From: Dehalococcoidia bacterium
GTDB taxonomy: Bacteria > Chloroflexota > Dehalococcoidia > Tepidiformales > Tepidiformaceae
Assembly (NCBI GenBank): GCA_007118095.1
Contig: SKSF01000028.1
Location: 1 to 47,577 of the forward strand
Direction of reading: 5' to 3'
DNA: 47,577 nt
Each line of letters opens with the position of its first letter. Positions within the stretch are counted from its first letter, which is position 1. Both the position numbers and the translations under genes were made by a program. This document shows, piece after piece, positions 3,996-14,784 of the stretch. The notes below the pieces were generated by a model, which worked only from the letters and a program-made list of their open reading frames with translations, was not told the origin of the DNA and did no database searches.

Positions 3996-4205
3996 TCAGC
4001 GTCGCTGGTGGGAAACGTGATGTTGTTCACGCGTAGCGCGCGCCATCCGTTGACGCAGGCTGGCCAGGTGGCACCGGAGTTCGAAGGTGCTCATATTGAG
4101 CCGGCTCGCGAGCGTGGAAAGAGGCTCCTGCCGGGCAAATCCTCGTACGATCTCGGCCTCGGTGGACGTCAACCGCACGGCGAGCCGCTCACTGTCGTGG
4201 GTCAT
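3996..4205 (-). CDS. Stand-alone LuxR/GerE-type helix-turn-helix protein (69 aa)
   Basis: This 69-residue protein is nearly all DNA-binding domain. It reads LTSTEAEIVRGFARQEPLS, then a helix-turn-helix of the form LASRLNMSTFELRCHLASLR, the spacing seen in LuxR/GerE C-terminal domains. No receiver, PAS or autoinducer-binding domain is present, and the C-terminus is Arg/His-rich. The start is supported by AGGA five bases upstream of the ATG. It is divergent from the large STAND regulator and convergent with the decarboxylase. Family knowledge suggests dimeric DNA binding; the target is unknown. The recognition helix deviates from the usual N-T-V-K-x-H pattern (here F-E-L-R-C-H), so weaker or altered specificity is possible. 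It could also be a remnant of a longer regulator, but the clear ribosome site argues that it is translated. Confidence 0.65.
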   Translation of the reverse strand: MTHDSERLAVRLTSTEAEIVRGFARQEPLSTLASRLNMSTFELRCHLASLRQRMARATREQHHVSHQRR

Positions 4206-4433: not shown

Positions 4434-4488
4434 TCATTAACGCCTTATCGTCTGGTGGGGCTTGCACTGGATATGTAGGATGAACGAG

Positions 4489-7400
4489 ATGCGATCTCCC
4501 ACATCCGGTCTCACCGCACGCCATGCGATCCCGGCACTGCGGCCCTACGTGGTCCCGCGGCAGCGCCTGCTCGATCGCATGCATGGCGCGGTCGGCAATG
4601 GCCTTATTGTCTTGCAGGCGCCGGGTGGCTATGGAAAGACGACGCTGGCCGCGCAGTTCGCGCGCGACGTCGAGTTCGAAGCGCGTTGGCTCAGCCTGGA
4701 CTCTTCGAGCCAGGCGCCAGAGGCCTTCGCCGAGCAGATCGTTTCGGCGGTGCTTGGGCGCGATGCCTGGCAGCCGGCGAGCATGGACGCTTCGGGCGCC
4801 CTCGCTTCGTACCTGGGCGTGGCGCTTCACGAATTCGAGGCGATGTCCACGCTTCCGCTCCTGCTGGTCATCGACAATGCACACGAGCTGAATCCCTCGG
4901 AAGTGTCGTGCGAGCTGCTTGGCTGGCTTCTCCAGTCCTTGCCACTGGGTTCCGAAGTGGTGCTTGCGGCCCGGGAGCCCCTCCAGGTGGCGGAGATCGA
5001 CCGCCTGGTTGCGGGCGGTGACGCTCTGCTGCTGGGCAGCAACGACCTGGGGTTCACCCCGGACGAAGTCGCCGCGGTGGTCGAACATTCCAATGACGCC
5101 GGCGCGGACCCGCGCACGGTCTTCGAGGCGACCGGGGGATGGCCGGTGGCGGTGCGGGGTGTCATCACTGGCACGCTAAGCCATGCGACGGCGAACCGGG
5201 CCGCCGCAGGTGGCGCCTGGGACCGTTACCTGGGCGGTGAAGTCTGGGCTACGGTGCCGGCAGAACTGCAACACGACCTGATGCTCGCGGCGATTCCCCC
5301 GTCAGCGGAGACGCATCTCGTCGCGACCCTCCTGGATGCTGGTGCATGGGATCGCCTCGGCGCATGGCTCGATGAGCGTGACTTCTTCGTGGAAAACGTG
5401 GATGACAGGGGGCGGCGGCTCAACCCGGTGGTCCAGCGCTTCCTCCGCGAACGGCTGCGCACCACTGAGCCGGACACCTACCAGCACGCGGTCTCCACGA
5501 TCACATGCAAGCTGGAAGGGGAGGGGCGTGTCGCCGACGCGCTCGAGATGGCCATCAGCCTCGCGTCGCACCGGGACCTCCGCGGGTTGCTGCTGCAGCA
5601 TGCGCCGGACCTCTTGCAGCGCGGCAGCTTCGTGACGTTGCGGCGGGCGTTCGACGCGCTTGAAACCTGCTACGACGAACCCGTGCCCGAGCTGACGGCA
5701 ATCCGGGCGCGTGTGCTCGCTCACCTCGACCAGCCCGAAGATGCGCTGATGACAGCCGACGCCGTCCTGGAAACGGAGTACGCCTCCCTGGAGGCGCGGC
5801 ACCATGCCCGCCTGGCCCGCGCACGTTCTTTGCGAATGCTCGGCCGCATGGACGAGGTCGCCGGCGCGCTCGACACGCCGATGGACGACCTGCCCTCGGA
5901 CCGCGCTCTGCAGGCGGAGTTTGCGTGGCACCGTGCGCACGCGGCGCTCGCCATCGATTCCGACCTCGACCGCGCGCTCCAGCTCTTGAATGAATGCCTC
6001 GTCGCGACGAAGGAGACCAGGACGCCGCTCCTTGAGCTCCTGTGCCGTTCGACTATCGGCCAGGTGCTGGTGATGAAGGGCGATGGCCCCGGCAGCGTCA
6101 CCGAATTGAGCGAAGCGGCGCGGGGATGGCGCGAACAGCAGGGCGCCGCCCATCTCGCCTGGGTGCTCAATAACCTGGGCATGGCGCACATCATGGTCGG
6201 CGACATGGAAAACGCAATCAAGACGCTCAACGAGGCGCGCGAGGAAAGCGTGATGGCGCACAACCTGCGTGCCGAGGCGTTTGCCGTCGCGTCTTTGGGC
6301 GATGCGTACCTCGCCTTCGGGAACGCTGAGAAGGCGCGCACGTGCTACGAAGAGACGATTGACCTGTGCACAGAGCAGCCACTCGACCAGTCGCTGGTTG
6401 TGATGGCGACGGCCGGCCTGGCCGGGGCCCTGCTCAGCCTGGGCGACGTCGCGCGCGCGGATTTTGTCGTGCGCCGGGCCGTCGAGATGGCCGAGGAGCT
6501 CGGCAGCCCCTTCGAGCTCGCATCGGCGTTGCTCCACCTTTCCGCCGTGGAGTCGGCCTCTGAACTCCATGCAGAGGCTGTGGGACATGCCACTCGCGCT
6601 GTGGAAATGCTCGAAGGTATCGGCGCCGAGGCTGAGCTCCGCACGGCGCGCTACCGTCTTGCCCTCATCCACTTCCGTGATGGCGACCGCGAGGCAGCCG
6701 AGCAGATCCTGGGCACATTGAACGAGTCGATGACCGCTGCATGGATGGTACGCGGGCTGGAACCGCTGATGCGCGAGCATCCCTTGTTCGCGCAGTGGGT
6801 GGAGAAGCGCCGGGATACGCCGCAGCTCGTGCGGGCGGCGATCCGGGGCATGGACTTCACGCCGCCGGAACCCGCGGAGACAGAAGCAGAATCGCGCTAT
6901 CCTCGAGTGGTGGCGCAAAGCCTCGGGCCGTTGCGTGTGCTGCGAAATGGCGAAGAAGTCGGCGACGATGCGTGGGAAAGCGTACGGGCGAAGGAGCTAT
7001 TCTACCTGTTCCTCGCCCACCCGGACGGGATCCGCAAGGAAGAAGCGTTCGAACAGCTCTACCCGGATCTCCCGGCCTCCCGCTGCAACAGCCAATTCCA
7101 TTCGAACCTCTATCGCGTCCGGAAGGCGCTGTACAAGGAGTGTGTGATTAAACGCGATGGGACGTACTTGCTGAACCCGGAAGGCGAGTTCCAGTGGGAT
7201 GTGGATGAATTCCGGGAGCTGTTAGACCGGGCCTCTGACCTCCCGGCGGGCTCGAGCGACCGCGCGGCGGCGTATGAACGCGCCATGCAGGTCTATCGCG
7301 GCCCGTTCGCCGAAGCCTTTTACTCCGAATGGGCGGCTTCCCTGCGTGAAGAGCTTTCGCGGCGACATATCGAAGCGCTCGCCAGCCTTGGCGGCTACTA

Positions 7401-7641
7401 TGCCGGCCGTGGCGAATTCGAAGCGGCCGCCGCGTGCATGGAGCAGGTGTTGCGCGCCACACAGTTCAACGACGAAGCAGCGGCGATGCTTGCGACCTAC
7501 CGGGCGCGTGCCGGGCAGCCGACGTCGGCGCTGGCATTCCTGGATGATTACCGGTCTGAGCTGCGCCGTGAACTGGATGAAGAGCTACCGCACAGGCTGA
7601 GCAATCTGCGAAAAGCCATCGCGTCTGGCGCGGCCGTGTAA
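4489..7641 (+). CDS. MalT-like STAND ATPase transcriptional activator with C-terminal winged helix and BTAD domain
   Basis: The protein has about 1050 residues. Near the N-terminus is a nucleotide-binding module: Walker A GGYGKTT (about 46-52) and Walker B LLLVIDNAHE (about 124-133), the MalT/STAND arrangement. A long TPR-like helical region follows (about 330-790). An OmpR-type winged helix (about 803-895) begins with SLGPLRVLRNGEEV. The protein ends in a bacterial transcriptional activation domain (about 902-1050), as in SARP regulators. Such proteins are signal-gated activators: ligand plus ATP drives multimerisation. The ligand is unknown. I chose ATG 4489 because TAGGA lies 8 bases upstream; ATG 4480 and TTG 4462 are alternatives. 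The gene ends in its own terminator, and the next promoter carries SARP-type repeats, so the downstream peptide/DUF5317 unit is its likeliest target. Confidence 0.92.
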   Translation: MRSPTSGLTARHAIPALRPYVVPRQRLLDRMHGAVGNGLIVLQAPGGYGKTTLAAQFARDVEFEARWLSLDSSSQAPEAFAEQIVSAVLGRDAWQPASMDASGALASYLGVALHEFEAMSTLPLLLVIDNAHELNPSEVSCELLGWLLQSLPLGSEVVLAAREPLQVAEIDRLVAGGDALLLGSNDLGFTPDEVAAVVEHSNDAGADPRTVFEATGGWPVAVRGVITGTLSHATANRAAAGGAWDRYLGGEVWATVPAELQHDLMLAAIPPSAETHLVATLLDAGAWDRLGAWLDERDFFVENVDDRGRRLNPVVQRFLRERLRTTEPDTYQHAVSTITCKLEGEGRVADALEMAISLASHRDLRGLLLQHAPDLLQRGSFVTLRRAFDALETCYDEPVPELTAIRARVLAHLDQPEDALMTADAVLETEYASLEARHHARLARARSLRMLGRMDEVAGALDTPMDDLPSDRALQAEFAWHRAHAALAIDSDLDRALQLLNECLVATKETRTPLLELLCRSTIGQVLVMKGDGPGSVTELSEAARGWREQQGAAHLAWVLNNLGMAHIMVGDMENAIKTLNEAREESVMAHNLRAEAFAVASLGDAYLAFGNAEKARTCYEETIDLCTEQPLDQSLVVMATAGLAGALLSLGDVARADFVVRRAVEMAEELGSPFELASALLHLSAVESASELHAEAVGHATRAVEMLEGIGAEAELRTARYRLALIHFRDGDREAAEQILGTLNESMTAAWMVRGLEPLMREHPLFAQWVEKRRDTPQLVRAAIRGMDFTPPEPAETEAESRYPRVVAQSLGPLRVLRNGEEVGDDAWESVRAKELFYLFLAHPDGIRKEEAFEQLYPDLPASRCNSQFHSNLYRVRKALYKECVIKRDGTYLLNPEGEFQWDVDEFRELLDRASDLPAGSSDRAAAYERAMQVYRGPFAEAFYSEWAASLREELSRRHIEALASLGGYYAGRGEFEAAAACMEQVLRATQFNDEAAAMLATYRARAGQPTSALAFLDDYRSELRRELDEELPHRLSNLRKAIASGAAV

Positions 7642-7644
7642 CAT

Positions 7645-7670
7645 CCCGGATACGGTCCGGGAATTTTTTT
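7645..7670 (+). terminator. Rho-independent terminator of the STAND-BTAD regulator gene
   Basis: CCCGGAT (7645-7651) pairs with GTCCGGG (7655-7661), one G-T pair included, across a three-base loop. AA and seven T residues follow at once. The hairpin starts three bases after the stop codon. Confidence 0.88.
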
Positions 7671-7689
7671 CACCCGCAGGCGCCTGTCG

Positions 7690-7721
7690 TGAGAATTTCG
7701 CGAGAACCTGCGCGCTATTGT
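7690..7721 (+). promoter_or_regulatory. SARP-type direct repeats and -10 element before the 29-aa ORF
   Basis: Two heptamers, TGAGAAT (7690-7696) and CGAGAAC (7701-7707), share the core GAGAA. They are separated by 4 bases (11-base period), and exactly 8 bases separate the second from TATTGT (7716-7721). This is the spacing described for SARP/BTAD activator sites: heptamer repeats 4 bp apart, the downstream one 8 bp before the -10. There is no recognisable -35, as expected for an activator-dependent promoter. The repeats sit directly after the gene for a BTAD protein. Binding by that protein is inference. Confidence 0.5.
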
Positions 7722-7759
7722 CCACCTGTCGTCAGTAAATGACGGTCAGGAGGAATGTC

Positions 7760-7849
7760 ATGAAGGTTCGCATCATCACCGCTGCCGTTTCCGTTTCGTC
7801 GCTGCTCGTACTCGCGCTCGCTGGCGCAGCCCCCATCATGCACTACTAG
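7760..7849 (+). CDS. 29-residue signal-peptide-like small ORF (candidate secreted peptide)
   Basis: An ATG preceded by AGGAGG at a 5-base distance opens a 29-codon frame ending in TAG. The peptide begins MKVR, continues with a Ser/Val/Leu/Ala-rich hydrophobic core, reaches ALAGAAP and ends IMHY. That is the n-, h- and c-region plan of a Sec signal peptide, with possible cleavage near ALAGA-A leaving a very short tail. It lies between a SARP-like promoter and the DUF5317 gene, 26 bases from the latter. Possible roles are a pheromone-like peptide sensed by the STAND regulator, a tiny membrane peptide, or a leader peptide. I do not recognise a family. The strong ribosome site is the main argument that it is translated. 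Confidence 0.55.
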   Translation: MKVRIITAAVSVSSLLVLALAGAAPIMHY

Positions 7850-7875: not shown

Positions 7876-8460
7876 ATGCTTCCACGGCTGCGCGAGAAGC
7901 TCGGGAGTTCACCGTATTTCGAGCCGGTATTTCTCGCGCTTGCCGTCGCCCTGTTTGTGTTGCAGGAACTCGCCATTTCGGGACTTTCACCCGATGGCGA
8001 GTGGGCATGGCTACGCCGAGCAGCGTTTTTTGTCCTAACGCCGCTGTTTGTCCTTGTTGTCCTGCATTTCAGGCGATTCCTTGGCGCGTGGATTATTGCG
8101 CTCGGGATTACGATGAACTTCATCCCGATGGCGGCGCATGGCGGAAATATGCCCATTGCCTACGAGGTGGTCCGGGATTCAGGCGCATTCCCGTCGATCA
8201 CCGAGGATCAGATAGGGCAGCAGCTCGAGAACTCGAAGGACGTGCTCCTCTGGGAGGAGCACGTCCGATTTGAGCCGCTCTCCGACCACATCGTGTTCAC
8301 CATTCCCGGGTACCGTACCAACATCTACAGCCCCGGCGATGTTGTGATAGCCACGGGTGTGGTCATCACAACGGTCGAAGCGGTCGCATATGCGTTCGGA
8401 TTGACGTGGAGGCAGCTTTACACGCGCCTTCGGTCTCGCGGCGACTTGCCCGCAAACTAG
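7876..8460 (+). CDS. DUF5317 family membrane protein
   Basis: The protein has 194 residues. Three hydrophobic helices lie in the first ~100 (roughly 17-35, 47-64, 70-88), followed by NFIPMAAHGGNMPIA. A polar loop of about 50 residues comes next, with a SDHIVF segment and NIYSPGDVVI, and then a last helix (about 153-172). The order helix pair, N-x-x-P-x-A-x-x-G-G-x-M-P, S-D and SPGDV is what I associate with DUF5317, a family without assigned function. The start ATG follows GGGAGG three bases upstream. It should be co-transcribed with the 29-aa ORF 26 bases before it. A role in handling or sensing the peptide is possible but unproven. Confidence 0.75.
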   Translation: MLPRLREKLGSSPYFEPVFLALAVALFVLQELAISGLSPDGEWAWLRRAAFFVLTPLFVLVVLHFRRFLGAWIIALGITMNFIPMAAHGGNMPIAYEVVRDSGAFPSITEDQIGQQLENSKDVLLWEEHVRFEPLSDHIVFTIPGYRTNIYSPGDVVIATGVVITTVEAVAYAFGLTWRQLYTRLRSRGDLPAN

Positions 8461-8529: not shown

Positions 8530-9645
8530 ATGCCCTTGATGAAGGGTGGCGAAGGCCCCGCACGTTCCGACGAGCGGATCGATTTTCTCTTCGCCGTGGC
8601 ACGCGAGCCGATGCTTATTCTTGAACCTGGCGAGACGCTCTCCGATTCCCGTATCACCGACTGTAACCAGGAAGCGCTCAACCTCTTCGGCTATCGCCGG
8701 GCGAGTTTTGTCGGCCTGCCGCTCTCGCGTGTCGAAGTGCCCGGCGCCGGCGGTGAAGCCGTCCCGGCCGAAGCGACCTCCGGTGAGGCGCGCTACCGCC
8801 GTTCCGATGGACAGGTCCTTATCGTTGAGCGGACCTTCCAGCGTGTTGAGTCTGATGGCCGCGAATTGCTGCTCGTTTCCATGCATGATGTCACTGCGGC
8901 ACGGCTCCTCGAGCGTGCAGTTGTACGCGTCCAGCAGATGGATAACCTCGGCATGGTCTCGGGCACCCTGGTGCACGACTTCCGAAATCTCCTGGTGAGT
9001 GTGCTGGCCAACGCCGAACTTGCGCTCGCCGCACCTGACGATGCCGAAGCTGTGCGCGAGCGAGTTGAGGACATCGCCCGCAGTGCCCGGCGCGCGACCG
9101 AGCTTGTCGACCGTGTGTTGCCGTCGTCTACTGGCGACCAGCCGCTGGTACCGCTCGACCTGGACAGCGTCGTCGACGATGCTGTGGAGCTCATGCGCGG
9201 CTCCCTCCCGGCGAATATCACGCTGGAGCGGTCCGTCCACGAAGAGCCGCTTCCCATCGCTGGCGACGCCACCCAGCTCCGCCAGGTGGTGATGAACCTC
9301 GTCATCAACGCGTGCGAAGCGATCGGCGATGCCCCGGGGACAGTGCGGGTTGGGACGGGCATGGTGGCAGCATCGGAGGTGGACCTGACCGGGGCCTACC
9401 CACCCCTCTCGGAGCGGGCGGAACAGTGGGTGTACCTGGATGTCGCCGACTCCGGCGCCGGGGTGGACAGCGCGACGCGGGAGCGCATTTTCGAACCCCT
9501 GTTCACCACAAAGTCGGACGGCACTGGCCTGGGGCTCACCGCCGTGCAGTTTGCGGTCCGGCGTCATGGCGGCACTGTCACGCTGCACTCCGAGCCGGGC
9601 GAAGGGTCCTCCTTCCGCATTCTTTTCCCCGTGGATGAAAGCTGA
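8530..9645 (+). CDS. Soluble PAS-domain sensor histidine kinase
   Basis: The protein has 371 residues and no transmembrane segment. A PAS domain occupies about residues 18-135 (TDCNQEALNLFGYRRASFVG). The dimerisation/phosphoacceptor helix contains VHDFRNLLV with His149, an HDFNN-type H-box. The ATP-binding domain shows NLVINACEA (N-box, near residue 260), DSGAGVD and TGLGL, and ends with the usual GSSFRILFP strand. All kinase motifs look intact. No response regulator gene lies beside it, so it is an orphan kinase here. It stands 69 bases after the DUF5317 gene and 109 bases before glgE. TATACT at 8472-8477 could be its -10, but no -35 at a good distance was found. The PAS ligand is unknown. 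Confidence 0.9.
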   Translation: MPLMKGGEGPARSDERIDFLFAVAREPMLILEPGETLSDSRITDCNQEALNLFGYRRASFVGLPLSRVEVPGAGGEAVPAEATSGEARYRRSDGQVLIVERTFQRVESDGRELLLVSMHDVTAARLLERAVVRVQQMDNLGMVSGTLVHDFRNLLVSVLANAELALAAPDDAEAVRERVEDIARSARRATELVDRVLPSSTGDQPLVPLDLDSVVDDAVELMRGSLPANITLERSVHEEPLPIAGDATQLRQVVMNLVINACEAIGDAPGTVRVGTGMVAASEVDLTGAYPPLSERAEQWVYLDVADSGAGVDSATRERIFEPLFTTKSDGTGLGLTAVQFAVRRHGGTVTLHSEPGEGSSFRILFPVDES

Positions 9646-9754: not shown

Positions 9755-11719
9755 GTGACAGAAACGCCAGCCCTTGCCTCCGCTCCGCACATCATCGTTG
9801 TCGACATCCAGCCAACCATCGAGTGTGGAGAACACCCGGTGAAGCGCATCGTCGGCGATGTGTTCACCGTGCGCGCGGTTGTGCTGAAGGGCGGTTACGA
9901 AGCGCTCGGGGCGGAACTCCGGGTACAGCGCCCTGGCAGCGATTCATGGGACGCCGTGCCCATGCGCTACGTCTACGAGGACGACCAGTGGGTTGCCGAT
10001 GTCACGCTCGACACAATCGGGGCCTGGCGCTACACGGTGGCCGCGTGGACGAATACTTTCAGCACCTGGCGAACCGAGATCGAGCGAAAGCACGCGGCCG
10101 GCGTCGACCTCTCGTCTGAGATGCTCGAAGGGGCGAACCTGCTGCGATATTACGCGCGGCACGCACAACCGGGCGCGCGCGACAGCATCATGGCGTATGC
10201 GGAGGCCATCGGCACAGCATCGCGTGACCGTGCAGTCGCATTCGCGCTCGAAGCGCGCCTGCAGCAGCTTGTTACGCAGGCCGACCCGCGTGAAGACCTG
10301 GTTGTCCACGAGCCTCCATACGAGGTGTGGGTGGACCGCGAGCGTGCACGCTTCGGCGCCTGGTACGAGCTCTTTCCCCGTTCGCAATCGCCGGTACCCG
10401 GTGAGCACGGCACGCTCCGCGATGTCGAAGGTGTGCTGCCGCGGCTGCGCGACCTCGGATTCGATGTCATCTATCTCCCGCCCATTCACCCGATCGGCCG
10501 GACGAACCGCAAGGGAAAGAACAACAGTCTCGCGCCGGCGCCTGATGACGTTGGCAGCCCCTGGGCCATCGGCAACGAAGACGGCGGCCACGATGCCATC
10601 GAACCAAAGCTGGGCACCATCGAGGACTTCGACCACCTGGTGGCGACTGCACGAGAATACGGCATCGAGATCGCGCTCGACTTCGCTATCCAGTGTTCGC
10701 CAGACCACCCGTATGTCCGTGAGCATCCTGAATGGTTCCGGCGCCGCCCCGACGGCACGATCAAGTATGCGGAGAACCCGCCCAAGAAGTACGAGGACAT
10801 CGTCGCGGTGGACCTCTGGTGCGAGGACTATCCCGCGCTCTGGCAGGAATTGAAGCGTGTGGTGCTGCACTGGGTGGAGCACGGCGTGCGCATCTTCCGG
10901 GTCGACAATCCGCACACGAAGCCGCTTGCCTTCTGGATGTGGCTGATAGAGGAAGTGCGCCGGGACTACCCGGACGTCTTCTTCCTCGCCGAAGCATTCA
11001 CGCGCCCAAACCTGCTCCACGAGCTTGCGCGGATCGGGTTCAGCCAGTCGTATACCTACTTCACCTGGCGCAACACCCGCATCGAGCTCGAAGACTACCT
11101 GGAAGAGCTGGCATCCCCGCCCGGTGTTGAATACGTGCGCCCGAACTTCTTTGCGAACACACCGGACATCCTCCACGAGTACCTGCAGGACGGCGGCCGG
11201 CCCGCGTTCAAGATCCGGCACGCTCTCGCCGCGACCCTGTCGCCAACGTACGGCATCTACAGCGGCTTCGAACTCTGCGAGAACGTGCCGGTGCGCATGG
11301 GCAGCGAGGAATACCTCGATTCGGAGAAGTATCAGATCCGCCAGCGCGACTGGGATGCGCCCGGGAACATCAACGACTTCATCGCCGCGGTGAACCGCGC
11401 CCGCAAGGAAAATGAAGCGCTCCACTTTCTTGCTAACCTGAGGTTCCACAGGCCGGATAACCCTGCCATCATCGCGTATAGCAAGAGCACGGACGATGGC
11501 GGCAACCGTGTGCTCGTGGTTGTAAACCTCGACCCGGCCTCCCCCCAGGAAGCAACGGTGCTTCTCGATGGAGACGCGCTCGGGTTGGGCGAAGGCTCAA
11601 CCTATGTAGTGCACGACCTGCTCACAGGTGACCGCTATACGTGGAACGGGCTTGCGAACTATGTCTGGCTAGACCCCGCAACCGAGCCGGTCCACCTCTT
11701 CCGCATTGAGGCGCCGTAG
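9755..11719 (+). CDS. glgE: Alpha-1,4-glucan:maltose-1-phosphate maltosyltransferase
   Basis: GlgE (EC 2.4.99.16) transfers maltosyl units from maltose-1-phosphate to the non-reducing end of alpha-1,4-glucan in the cytoplasm. The 654-residue length is normal. The N-terminal beta-sandwich domain (about 8-105) is followed by the GH13_3 barrel. The nucleophile is Asp384 in FRVDNPHTKP, a GlgE hallmark, and the acid/base is Glu413 in FLAEAF. Both sit 10 residues before the positions I recall for the Streptomyces enzyme (394 and 423). NTPDIL supplies the third carboxylate region. The start is GTG, after CCGAGGTG. It is the first gene of the glucan operon, and the treS ATG follows its TAG with no gap. 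Confidence 0.95.
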   Translation: MTETPALASAPHIIVVDIQPTIECGEHPVKRIVGDVFTVRAVVLKGGYEALGAELRVQRPGSDSWDAVPMRYVYEDDQWVADVTLDTIGAWRYTVAAWTNTFSTWRTEIERKHAAGVDLSSEMLEGANLLRYYARHAQPGARDSIMAYAEAIGTASRDRAVAFALEARLQQLVTQADPREDLVVHEPPYEVWVDRERARFGAWYELFPRSQSPVPGEHGTLRDVEGVLPRLRDLGFDVIYLPPIHPIGRTNRKGKNNSLAPAPDDVGSPWAIGNEDGGHDAIEPKLGTIEDFDHLVATAREYGIEIALDFAIQCSPDHPYVREHPEWFRRRPDGTIKYAENPPKKYEDIVAVDLWCEDYPALWQELKRVVLHWVEHGVRIFRVDNPHTKPLAFWMWLIEEVRRDYPDVFFLAEAFTRPNLLHELARIGFSQSYTYFTWRNTRIELEDYLEELASPPGVEYVRPNFFANTPDILHEYLQDGGRPAFKIRHALAATLSPTYGIYSGFELCENVPVRMGSEEYLDSEKYQIRQRDWDAPGNINDFIAAVNRARKENEALHFLANLRFHRPDNPAIIAYSKSTDDGGNRVLVVVNLDPASPQEATVLLDGDALGLGEGSTYVVHDLLTGDRYTWNGLANYVWLDPATEPVHLFRIEAP

Positions 11720-13360
11720 ATGCTGACGAATGACCCCTTCTGGTACAAAGATGCGATCATCTACCAGGTTAGTATCCGTTCGTTTTTTGATTCGAATGGT
11801 GATGGGAATGGTGACATCCCGGGGCTCACGCAAAAGCTCGACTACATTAGCTGGCTCGGCGCCAATACCATCTGGCTGCTCCCGTTCTACCAGTCGCCGC
11901 TCAAGGACGGCGGCTACGACATCTCGGACTTCCGCCAGGTGCATCCCGACTTTGGGACCATCGACGACTTTCAGATCTTCCTCGATGAGGCGCACAAGCG
12001 CGGGATCCGCGTTATCACCGAACTCATCCTGAACCACACGTCCGACCAGCACTTCTGGTTCCAGGAAGCGCGCAAGGACCGCAACTCGCCCTATCGTGAC
12101 TACTACGTCTGGAGCGATACCGACGCCCGCTATTCGGATGCGCGGATCATCTTCACGGACACCGAGCGGTCGAACTGGACATGGGACCATGATGCCGGGC
12201 AGTATTTCTGGCACCGCTTCTTTAGCCACCAGCCCGACCTGAACTACGACAACCCGTGCGTCCAGCAGGAGATGAAGGATATCCTCGCCTTCTGGTTCGA
12301 CATGGGCGTCGATGGGATGCGCCTCGATGCGGTGCCCTACCTGTACGAGCGCGAAGGCACCAACTGCGAAAACCTCCCCGAGACGCACGCCTTCTTGAAG
12401 GAGCTGCGCAGCTTCCTGGACGAGAACTGGGAAAACCGGCTGTTTCTCGCCGAGGCGAACCAGTGGCCCGACGACGTCCGCCCCTACTTTGGCGACGGGG
12501 ACGAATGCCACATGGCCTACCACTTCCCTGTCATGCCGCGCCTGTACATTGCCCTCCGCAAGGAGCAGCGGCGCCCCATTGTCGACATCCTTTGCCAGAC
12601 CCCGGACATCCCGCCCTCGTGCCAGTGGTGCATGTTCTTGCGGAACCACGACGAACTGACGCTGGAGATGGTGTCCGATGACGAGCGCGACTACCTCTAC
12701 AACGAATATGCGCGCGATCCACGGATGCGCATCAACATCGGGATACGCCGCCGGCTCGCTCCGTTGCTCGACAACAGCCGGCGCCGTATCGAGCTGATGA
12801 ACGCGCTCCTCTTCTCGTTGCCCGGCACGCCGATCATTTACTACGGAGACGAGATCGGCATGGGCGACAACATCTACCTCGGCGACCGTGACGCAGTCCG
12901 GACTCCCATGCAGTGGAGTGGCGACCGAAACGCGGGCTTCTCGCGCTGCGATCCGCAGGCTCTCTGCCAGCCTATTGTGCGGGACCCCATCTACCCCTAC
13001 GAAGCCGTGAACGTGGAGACGCAGGAACGGTTGCCCACGTCTCTGCTGTGGTGGATGAAGCGAGCCATGGCCGTCCGGAACGAGTACCCGGTGTTTGGCC
13101 GCGGTTCGATCCGGTTCCTCCACCCGGAGAACGAGTCCATCCTCGCCTTTCTCCGCGAAGACGCCGACAGCCGCATCCTGGTCATCGCGAACATGTCGCG
13201 ATTCGCCCAGGCGACCACGGTGGATCTCTCCGAGTTTGCCGGGCTCTACCCGGTCGACCTCTTCGGCCGCGTCGCCTTCCCTGAGATTACGGAGTACCCA
13301 TACCAGTTCACGTTTGGGCCGCACAACTTCTTCTGGTTTGAACTCAGGTCTGTCGATTAG
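11720..13360 (+). CDS. treS: Trehalose synthase (maltose alpha-D-glucosyltransferase)
   Basis: TreS (EC 5.4.99.16) interconverts trehalose and maltose. The protein has 546 residues, a single GH13_16 catalytic unit without the fused maltokinase found in many bacteria. The N-terminus FWYKDAIIYQVSIRSFFDSN is strongly diagnostic. The catalytic triad can be placed: Asp203 in GMRLDAVPYL, Glu245 in FLAEANQW and Asp311 in RNHDEL. A mobile-lid region is visible around RYSDARIIFTDTERSNW. The start codon abuts the glgE stop, so translation is probably coupled. In this operon it supplies maltose to the maltokinase encoded next; the equilibrium also allows glucan-derived maltose to return to trehalose. 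Confidence 0.95.
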   Translation: MLTNDPFWYKDAIIYQVSIRSFFDSNGDGNGDIPGLTQKLDYISWLGANTIWLLPFYQSPLKDGGYDISDFRQVHPDFGTIDDFQIFLDEAHKRGIRVITELILNHTSDQHFWFQEARKDRNSPYRDYYVWSDTDARYSDARIIFTDTERSNWTWDHDAGQYFWHRFFSHQPDLNYDNPCVQQEMKDILAFWFDMGVDGMRLDAVPYLYEREGTNCENLPETHAFLKELRSFLDENWENRLFLAEANQWPDDVRPYFGDGDECHMAYHFPVMPRLYIALRKEQRRPIVDILCQTPDIPPSCQWCMFLRNHDELTLEMVSDDERDYLYNEYARDPRMRINIGIRRRLAPLLDNSRRRIELMNALLFSLPGTPIIYYGDEIGMGDNIYLGDRDAVRTPMQWSGDRNAGFSRCDPQALCQPIVRDPIYPYEAVNVETQERLPTSLLWWMKRAMAVRNEYPVFGRGSIRFLHPENESILAFLREDADSRILVIANMSRFAQATTVDLSEFAGLYPVDLFGRVAFPEITEYPYQFTFGPHNFFWFELRSVD

Positions 13361-13362
13361 CC

Positions 13363-14784
13363 ATGGCCACGATCGCTCTCGACACCGGAGGCGCCAGCCT
13401 TTTTGACGCGCTGCACGACCAGCACATCCGCGACGCGCTCGAGCAAAAGCTCCCCGGCTTCCTGCAGGAGCAGCGCTGGTTCGCCGGTCGTGCGCACGGC
13501 GTAAACTCCGTGCGGATCGAACACATGGTCCCGTTGTCCGACGACGGGTCCCTCGTGTCCACAATCGTCGATGTGAACGATGGCGCCGGGGCGATGACCC
13601 GCTACCAGGTGCTGCTGGAACAACAGCCTGGCAGCGTGGTTGGTGACCCCCTCGCCGGTCGAAACGCGACGGCGCTCCGCGACCTCCTGCAGCGAGGCGG
13701 CCGCCGCGAGGCTGAAGGCGTGCGCTTTGTCGCAGCAGGTCCCGGGGGCGATGACCAGTGCGCCGGCAACCCCCGGCCCCTGGGCGCCGAGCAGAGCAAT
13801 TCCTCGGTGGTCTTTGGTGACCAGTGCATCATGAAGGTGTTTCGCATCATCCAGGACGGCTGGAACCCCGATGTCCAGCTCACTGCCTGGCTGTCCGGCC
13901 CTGGCGGTTTTCCAAATGTCCCGCGGGTGATCGGGACCGCGCGGCTCCAGGCGCCCGGGCTCGATGCGGACGCCGCTGTCTTGCAGGAGTTCGTTCCGAA
14001 TGAGGGCGACGGGTGGAGCTGGATCCTGGAGCGTGCCCGGACGGCGTGTGCCAACGCTATGGACGGCACATCGATGCGCGCCTACCTCGCTGAGGAACAG
14101 GAGACGCTGTCCCGGGCCGCGGAACTTGGCCATATCACAGCGCAGTTGCATGCGACGCTTTCGCGCGCTGACGAGCCCGGGATGACGCCCGCCGCGGCCA
14201 CCGTCTCCGACTGGGAGGCATGGCAGGAAGAGCTGCAGTCGAATGCGCGGGACACGGCTGCCATGCTGCAGCCAACGAACCCGGAGCTGGCGGAGCGCGT
14301 CTCAACGTTGTCGCGCGAGGCCTCCACACCAGCGCCCGTGGACCTGGGGATGAAGACCCGGGTTCATGGCGACTTCCACCTGGGCCAGGTGCTGCGGACG
14401 GAGCGGGGCTGGATCATCATCGATTTCGAAGGCGAGCCAGCGCGGCCCCTCGCGGAACGGGTGGCTCTCCAGCACCCGCTCGCCGATGTCGCTGGCATGT
14501 TGCGCTCCTGGGATTACGCCGCGCGGACGGCTGGCCAGGGAAGCGAGGCCGCGGCGGCGTGGGGCGAGGCCGTCTCGGATGCCTATCTCGCGGCGTACTG
14601 GGAGACCGCCGATACCGCCGAACGGCCCTTCCTGCCTGCGGGCGACGAAGCCCGGGCGACGGTTCTCCGGCTCTTCACACTCCGAAAGGCACTGTATGAA
14701 GTCCGTTACGAACTTGGCTCACGGCCGGACTGGGTCTGGGTACCGGTGGGTGCCGTTGCGGCTATGCTGGATGACACGAGATGA
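13363..14784 (+). CDS. mak: Maltokinase (Pep2-type)
   Basis: Mak/Pep2 (EC 2.7.1.175) phosphorylates maltose with ATP to alpha-maltose-1-phosphate, the substrate of GlgE. The protein has 473 residues. The N-terminal cap contains LPGFLQEQRWFAGRA, the signature of this group. The kinase core has VHGDFHLGQVL with catalytic Asp337, and IIDFEGEP with metal-binding Asp354, in a choline-kinase-like fold. The C-terminal GMLRSWDYA stretch is also typical. The ATG lies two bases after the treS stop. Encoded separately from TreS, it could form the TreS-Pep2 complex known in mycobacteria; this is inference. Its stop overlaps the glgX start in an ATGA. Confidence 0.93.
   Translation: MATIALDTGGASLFDALHDQHIRDALEQKLPGFLQEQRWFAGRAHGVNSVRIEHMVPLSDDGSLVSTIVDVNDGAGAMTRYQVLLEQQPGSVVGDPLAGRNATALRDLLQRGGRREAEGVRFVAAGPGGDDQCAGNPRPLGAEQSNSSVVFGDQCIMKVFRIIQDGWNPDVQLTAWLSGPGGFPNVPRVIGTARLQAPGLDADAAVLQEFVPNEGDGWSWILERARTACANAMDGTSMRAYLAEEQETLSRAAELGHITAQLHATLSRADEPGMTPAAATVSDWEAWQEELQSNARDTAAMLQPTNPELAERVSTLSREASTPAPVDLGMKTRVHGDFHLGQVLRTERGWIIIDFEGEPARPLAERVALQHPLADVAGMLRSWDYAARTAGQGSEAAAAWGEAVSDAYLAAYWETADTAERPFLPAGDEARATVLRLFTLRKALYEVRYELGSRPDWVWVPVGAVAAMLDDTR

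Follow-up and report, generated by a model that had tools for sequence, protein, structure and literature searches.

At the promoter, one of the closest described systems is AfsR-afsS of Streptomyces coelicolor, where two 11-bp repeats overlapping the -35 region hold SARP dimers side by side, and these recruit the polymerase (PMC10936776). The afsS promoter carries two 11-bp direct repeats, the downstream one located 8 bp from a weak -10 element, CACTGT. PimR-type SARP-LAL regulators also use heptamer direct repeats (PMC5930380), and in ComRS the promoter targeted by the regulator drives the precursor gene (PMC8605241). An initial sequence-only reading of the locus described below had invoked the SARP geometry published for Streptomyces, and the published description is as that reading stated it (PMC10936776).

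The locus belongs to a Dehalococcoidia bacterium of the Tepidiformaceae (contig SKSF01000028.1, assembly GCA_007118095.1). The window, meaning the whole stretch of DNA that was analysed, comprises 47,577 nucleotides. As a combined statement, which we consider slightly better supported than an even bet, the operon for an exported peptide is switched on by a SARP-type activator and most probably forms an autoinducing circuit. The features concerned are as follows:

4480..7641, plus strand: regulator, 1053 aa, a MalT-like STAND ATPase with a TPR superhelix and a C-terminal SARP domain (STAND, residues ~10-400; TPR, ~400-790; winged helix, ~808-905; BTAD, 907-1047).
7644..7670, plus strand: terminator-like hairpin (7644-7662) and T-run of the intrinsic type, between the regulator gene and the target unit.
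7688..7707, plus strand: predicted SARP-type operator, direct repeat CGTGAGAAT / CGCGAGAAC with an 11-bp period, conserved in orthologous loci.
7716..7721, plus strand: -10 element TATTGT (TANNNT), exactly 8 nt 3' of the second heptamer.
7748..7753, plus strand: ribosome-binding site AGGAGG, from the sequence; GGAGG is common here in the alignment.
7760..7849, plus strand: small exported-type peptide, 29 aa, MKVRIITAAVSVSSLLVLALAGAAPIMHY, with the predicted tail APIMHY after A-x-A.
7876..8460, plus strand: DUF5317 (PF17248; Pfam E 4e-19), a four-helix membrane protein of 194 aa and the second gene of the target unit.

Other genes were observed on both sides of this region. Upstream of the regulator, positions 3999-4205 on the minus strand contain a 69-aa ORF, MTHDSERLAVRLTSTEAEIVRGFARQEPLSTLASRLNMSTFELRCHLASLRQRMARATREQHHVSHQRR, which reads like a LuxR-type HTH and has no Pfam match. 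Downstream lies a PAS-HisKA histidine kinase (8530-9645); of the loci compared, only that of the sister species has one in the same position. Positions 9755-14784 encode GlgE, a TreS-like amylase and maltokinase-like genes beside the MalT-like regulator. This cluster, leading from maltose-1-phosphate/trehalose to glucan, is common only to the sister species among the loci compared. A related-locus search with the window locus returned the sister species only.

Read directly from the sequence, the operator consists of the heptamers TGAGAAT (7690-7696) and CGAGAAC (7701-7707), separated by the spacer TTCG (7697-7700). They share GAGAA, lie 4 bases apart, and the second ends 8 bases before TATTGT, exactly as the sequence-only reading had reported. 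The similarity extends beyond the shared GAGAA, with 7/9 identity between CGTGAGAAT and CGCGAGAAC, and the interval between the second heptamer and the -10 element is CTGCGCGC (7708-7715). The site obeys the published operator rule for SARPs (PMC10936776), which asks for direct repeats of 11-bp period with 8 bp between the 3' repeat and the -10 element. The regulator stop codon occupies 7639-7641, and because the hairpin and T-run follow the regulator gene, the repeats are assigned to the next transcription unit, whose small ORF starts 53 nt past the second heptamer. For the chance test, we counted pairs of heptamers at least 5/7 identical, spaced at an 11-bp period and followed by TANNNT after exactly 8 nt. 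About 5.4 such arrangements are expected per Markov-shuffled window (both strands), compared with 2 present. The bare repeat geometry is not significant by itself and, since it is expected about five times by chance, the case for an operator rests on conservation.

A whole-genome search identified regulator orthologues in 23 of the 38 genomes of the family, with 39-64% identity outside the home genome. In about 21 of these 23 genomes, CGCGAGAATTTCGCGAGAAC-N8-TANNNT precedes the same transcription unit, and the TA and last T of the -10 element are invariant in the alignment of orthologous sites. Scanning the 38 family genomes with the full-site pattern (up to 3 mismatches) gave 24 matches, compared with 0 for the reversed control. 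Twenty of these matches are the peptide promoter, and the other 4 lack such a peptide or lie outside a promoter. The site occurs about once per genome in the family, and its exact 18-mer has a single occurrence in the home genome. The site of genome G003 is not linked to the regulator and nevertheless precedes a peptide (MKARLVTAAVALASLATIVAAGAAPFQNW), indicating that the operator stays with the target and not with the regulator. In G017, the downstream target operon is encoded on the other strand and has a site of its own. Lack of conservation in relatives had been set beforehand as a refuting condition; when this was run, the repeats were found to be kept in the family and to drift elsewhere with a constant 11-bp period. 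We regard it as close to certain, on the strength of this conservation, that the two repeats represent a real SARP-type operator of the peptide/DUF5317 unit. DNA binding, activation and RNA polymerase recruitment by the SARP domain are inferred.

The regulator matched the Pfam families BTAD (E 4e-11) and TPR, and was matched to MalT and AfsR by profile. Its description as a STAND ATPase with a winged helix and BTAD domain was borne out, and its last 245 residues fit the SARP domain of AfsR. The P-loop reads APGGYGKTT, with P48, G50, G52 and K53 invariant, and the STAND part aligned with MalT (8bob) at a profile E of 7e-38 and a structural Z of 33.8; the AF2 model of the regulator has a pLDDT of 87. 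The SARP domain aligned with AfsR in the transcription initiation complex (8k60/8hvr; Z 20-21), and for residues 808-1053 the comparison with the AfsR SARP gave Z 21.4 over 241 residues (rmsd 3.6). An OmpR-type winged helix followed by BTAD, the SARP criterion, is met. The N-terminal position of canonical SARPs is not, since the SARP domain is C-terminal (residues 808-1053), and we therefore file the protein as a STAND regulator with SARP output, not as a canonical SARP. Similarly, the MalT/STAND criterion of a STAND ATPase with P-loop and TPR sensor is met, and that of a C-terminal LuxR-type HTH is not, a SARP domain standing in its place.

The TPR region is closest to domain III of MalT (Z 29), the ligand of which is maltotriose. 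The next-closest folds include pheromone receptors, namely RapJ-PhrC (Z 27.0), a phage Rap with pheromone (26.8), RapF-PhrF (24.6), NprR-NprX (21.1) and AimR (about 20); eukaryotic LGN TPRs also align (Z 22-24). Because LGN and MalT domain III score likewise or higher, the fold does not identify the TPR ligand; the modelled structure is compatible with peptide sensing and is not proof of it. The RRNPP architecture (N-terminal HTH-TPR or Rap three-helix bundle, no ATPase) is not met by the regulator. The RRNPP criterion of a small precursor encoded beside the receptor is met for adjacency and coding, with export judged by eye. The regulator's mode of action may resemble that of an RRNPP system, although it does not belong to this group.

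The family layout comprises a ribosome-binding site and a 28-29 aa ORF about fifty bases past the repeats, encoding a peptide with a basic N-terminus, a hydrophobic core, AxA and a short clade-specific tail. The 20 distinct family peptides all have an Arg close to the N-terminus, a core Leu and GxAP ahead of the tail, and all but one of them end in an aromatic residue. Close peptide pairs showed pN/pS values of 0-0.22, with synonymous changes far exceeding nonsynonymous ones, which indicates that the ORF is translated and under selection. Judged by this substitution pattern, the small ORF is a real coding peptide under strong purifying selection. The family tails vary by genus (APYQSW, APFQSW, APIQSW, APIMHY); they are short, mostly aromatic, nearly fixed inside a genus and different between clades. 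Export and trimming after A-x-A are inferred, the cleavage site having been judged by eye, and some divergent peptides carry longer hydrophilic tails without a clear A-x-A. The window peptide had no match in Pfam or NCBIfam. Homology of the target to AfsS was not met, as a 29-aa hydrophobic A-x-A peptide with a short tail is unlike a cytoplasmic regulator. When receptor positions tracking the tail type were sought, another basal lineage shared as many.

We propose that positions 7688-7721 act as the operator and -10 element of a SARP-activated promoter. Upon ligand binding by the TPR domain, the regulator would oligomerise (inferred, as in MalT), and two SARP domains, side by side on the 11-bp repeats, would replace the -35 box and recruit RNA polymerase. 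The two-gene unit for the 29-aa exported peptide and DUF5317 would be the sole target that recurs. Following export, the peptide would be cut after A-x-A, leaving a tail of 5-6 residues (APIMHY or PIMHY in this case); return of the tail to the cell and its binding to the TPR domain would give positive feedback and an autoinducing circuit. Import could proceed through one of many oligopeptide-type permeases, the home genome encoding 24 SBP_bac_5 importer proteins, and DUF5317 may help process, export or limit the peptide. The autoinducer step, with the peptide as TPR ligand, is inferred in the absence of binding data, and we place it just short of an even chance.

The sequence-only reading had paired the regulator with the next transcription unit. 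The site and the regulator were right, and the conserved module of exported peptide and DUF5317 was missed. Regulator and DUF5317 co-occur in 23/23 regulator genomes of the family (one DUF5317 each) versus 0/15 of the others, and class-wide 54 of the 57 DUF5317 genomes have a regulator match. The AF2 model of DUF5317 (pLDDT 89) gave no fold match in the PDB, and a search for DUF5317 on plasmids did not find it there. DUF5317 is named in no paper found in the literature searched, which is weak evidence because most subscription papers were outside the search. Matches to DUF5317 were also observed in the control genomes Thermotoga maritima and Thermus composti.

Most regulators of family f17 lack an adjacent peptide. 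If peptide and DUF5317 form a unit, the unlinked DUF5317 genes of this family are predicted to have a peptide upstream, and the prediction held in 6/6 cases examined (MSRFLPTALVAFTVLATALVAVAPWYWG and relatives). An unlinked DUF5317 gene in genome G171 is likewise preceded by a peptide. No such peptide was found upstream of the more distant DUF5317 genes L145-L148, L150, L151, L153 and L155. The f17 peptide promoters (L138-L143; also L100) have no SARP repeat and carry TCAAGT-N11-GCCGATA instead, which looks like a sigma28/WhiG-type promoter. Control is possibly rewired there, and the peptide unit may have been rewired between regulators. Locus L085 seemingly has both a SARP repeat and a sigma28-like promoter. 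A flagellar link was considered, with flagellin in 19/23 regulator-positive and 2/15 regulator-negative family genomes; it was rejected, as the home genome has no flagellin, no f17 genome is listed with one, and phylogeny explains the distribution best.

Beyond the family, a regulator profile recovered about 50 further full-length homologues in the class and phylum. A hydrophobic small ORF preceded by a ribosome-binding site was detected within 450 nt of the regulator in 49 of 72 loci, versus 2.4% of 5,760 random windows, and the strict repeat with TANNNT in 22/72 regulator loci, versus 0.35% of random windows. Since the regulator loci are related and the random control windows are mostly coding DNA, p-values overstate independence. 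By inspection, an adjacent peptide was assigned in about 39/50 loci outside the family; several divergent peptides were chosen by eye, under looser criteria than the automated detection, and many of the genomes compared are fragmented assemblies. Outside the family, in Chloroflexota of other families and classes, the repeat sequence drifts and the 11-bp period is kept (TGGTAAGAGTTTGGTAAGAGG, CGGCGAGATTTCGGCGAGAG, TTCGTCACAGTTTCGTCACAC), with GTCAGAGGTTGGTCAGAGGT and TTGTAAGTGATTTGTAAGTGG as further examples. In locus L123, the repeat TGTTCAGAGTTTGTTCAGAGG is located on the divergent side. At some peptides, e.g. L078, L079, L091 and L100, a clear repeat is absent. Clade tails beyond the family include AAQSPLF, AGQSAFI, AEVIWGS, APWSWG, AEYTSYP, GADAVWP and GADGFGP. 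Two regulators from different clades occur in genome G200 beside two different tails, of which AAQSPFL is the type found in the clade of its regulator.

Variations of the arrangement were also recorded. In L087 and L090 (family f14), TGGTAAGAATCTGGTAAGAG and a TATCAT-like -10 element precede a 36-aa peptide (..AAWPVGTCP, ..AAWPVATGP), with a response-regulator-like gene downstream instead of DUF5317. Tandem small ORFs with tandem operator copies were found in L076, L084 and L103; L076 contains an almost exact repeat unit, and L084 the same peptide in two copies.

The co-inheritance of peptide, DUF5317 and regulator also admits an unlikely yet serious alternative, in which the peptide is a small membrane subunit or a DUF5317 substrate and the regulator senses a sugar or nucleotide and switches on a membrane complex. 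Peptide and DUF5317 stay together even when unlinked from the regulator, regulator and DUF5317 are found together without exception within the family, and the peptide might span the membrane once and expose its C-terminus on the outside. Furthermore, the ligand of MalT is maltotriose, and no fold came closer to the TPR region than the MalT sensor. However, DUF5317 follows the peptide in many, not all, families: in f2, f14, f62, f81 and others, the regulator, repeats and peptide occur with no DUF5317-like gene within ~1.3 kb, which makes the peptide the more constant target and argues against such a complex. The tail divergence between clades would also be unusual for a complex subunit. As for sugar sensing, the maltose/trehalose genes at 9755-14784 are common only to the sister species among the loci compared, and on this ground maltose sensing via the neighbouring GlgE/TreS/maltokinase genes was rejected.

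Strong, sequence-diverse hairpins were observed between peptide and DUF5317 in L010, L012, L015-L017, L019, L020, L023 and L165, some of them covering the DUF5317 start codon (e.g. AATCGCCCGCATGAAACGCCATGCGGGCGATT). These could be attenuators favouring peptide output. The presence of strong hairpins in many family loci, together with a short signal-like ORF directly 5' of a membrane-protein gene, would also suit a leader or arrest peptide tuning DUF5317 translation or attenuation, e.g. a secretion monitor. We consider this quite improbable, as peptides exist without DUF5317 downstream, tandem peptide copies have their own repeats (L084, L103), and no significant hairpin was found between peptide and DUF5317 in the window. 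A bacteriocin-like antimicrobial peptide, with DUF5317 as immunity or export protein, appears very improbable. One operon does combine a small exported peptide with a membrane protein, and SARP regulators are classically linked to antibiotic production (PMC10936776), but few residues are left past the predicted cleavage site, and the single copy per family genome, the purifying selection and the co-inheritance with the regulator differ from the scattered distribution expected of bacteriocins. Finally, a chance resemblance of the repeats, with an ordinary promoter driving the unit, can draw on a bare geometry expected about five times per window, but it is scarcely tenable and is ruled out by conservation at ~21 orthologous loci, given also ~1 site per genome, 0 reversed-control matches and the blind recovery of an unlinked peptide.

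Returning to the autoinducing circuit, the operator, its spacing and conservation, the target, the coding peptide and the co-inheritance of the module are established by sequence comparison only. Across Chloroflexota, the switch, peptide and membrane protein together look like an undescribed peptide-signalling system. We tentatively suggest, with confidence clearly under one half, a new class of peptide communication in this phylum, in which a STAND-TPR-SARP receptor would sense a pheromone of ~4-9 residues from the precursor that it activates, many lineages would use DUF5317 as a dedicated membrane component, and the clade-specific tails would be lineage-specific signals. Literature searches on BTAD and quorum sensing, SARP in Chloroflexi, STAND and peptide quorum sensing, and Chloroflexota signalling peptides yielded nothing relevant, again as weak evidence with most subscription papers outside the search. 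If the peptide is the ligand, this would be the first peptide-pheromone circuit in Chloroflexota according to the papers searched, and one built on a STAND/SARP receptor instead of RRNPP. Even without peptide sensing, the analysis provides a context for DUF5317 and brings to light dozens of small conserved genes. The regulator-operator-target trio is conserved across a phylum in which little is known of regulation, and each step is testable with short DNA or synthetic peptides.

Compared with AfsR-afsS, the locus likewise combines STAND/NOD, TPR and SARP parts in one protein that would activate a very small gene, through 11-bp repeats placed 8 bp from the -10 element (CACTGT in the AfsR system, TATTGT here). 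It differs in the reversed domain order, with the SARP domain C-terminal here, in its MalT-like STAND part, and in a target that is not AfsS. With PimR-type SARP-LAL regulators it shares heptamer direct repeats, 4-bp spacers, a large STAND-type regulator and a single target promoter (PMC5930380). PimR, however, carries its SARP domain at the N-terminus, and its main operator is made of three repeats that lie clear of the -35 box. The STAND module and the domain III-like sensor are shared with MalT of Escherichia coli, whereas MalT has a LuxR-type HTH at its C-terminus where a SARP domain is found here, and both the target and the probable ligand differ. ComR-ComS and the RRNPP systems (Rap-Phr, NprR-NprX, PlcR-PapR, AimR-AimP) likewise pair a TPR regulator with a small precursor, the short C-terminal end of which differs from lineage to lineage. 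As in ComRS, the target promoter of the regulator drives the precursor gene (PMC8605241), and the sensor superhelices of Rap, NprR and AimR align with the TPR region of the window regulator. Unlike the HTH-TPR receptors of RRNPP, the receptor here has a STAND ATPase and a SARP activator and belongs to another phylum, with peptide binding inferred. The system would thus work like AfsR-afsS at the promoter and may follow the logic of ComRS or Rap-Phr, while being a member of neither.
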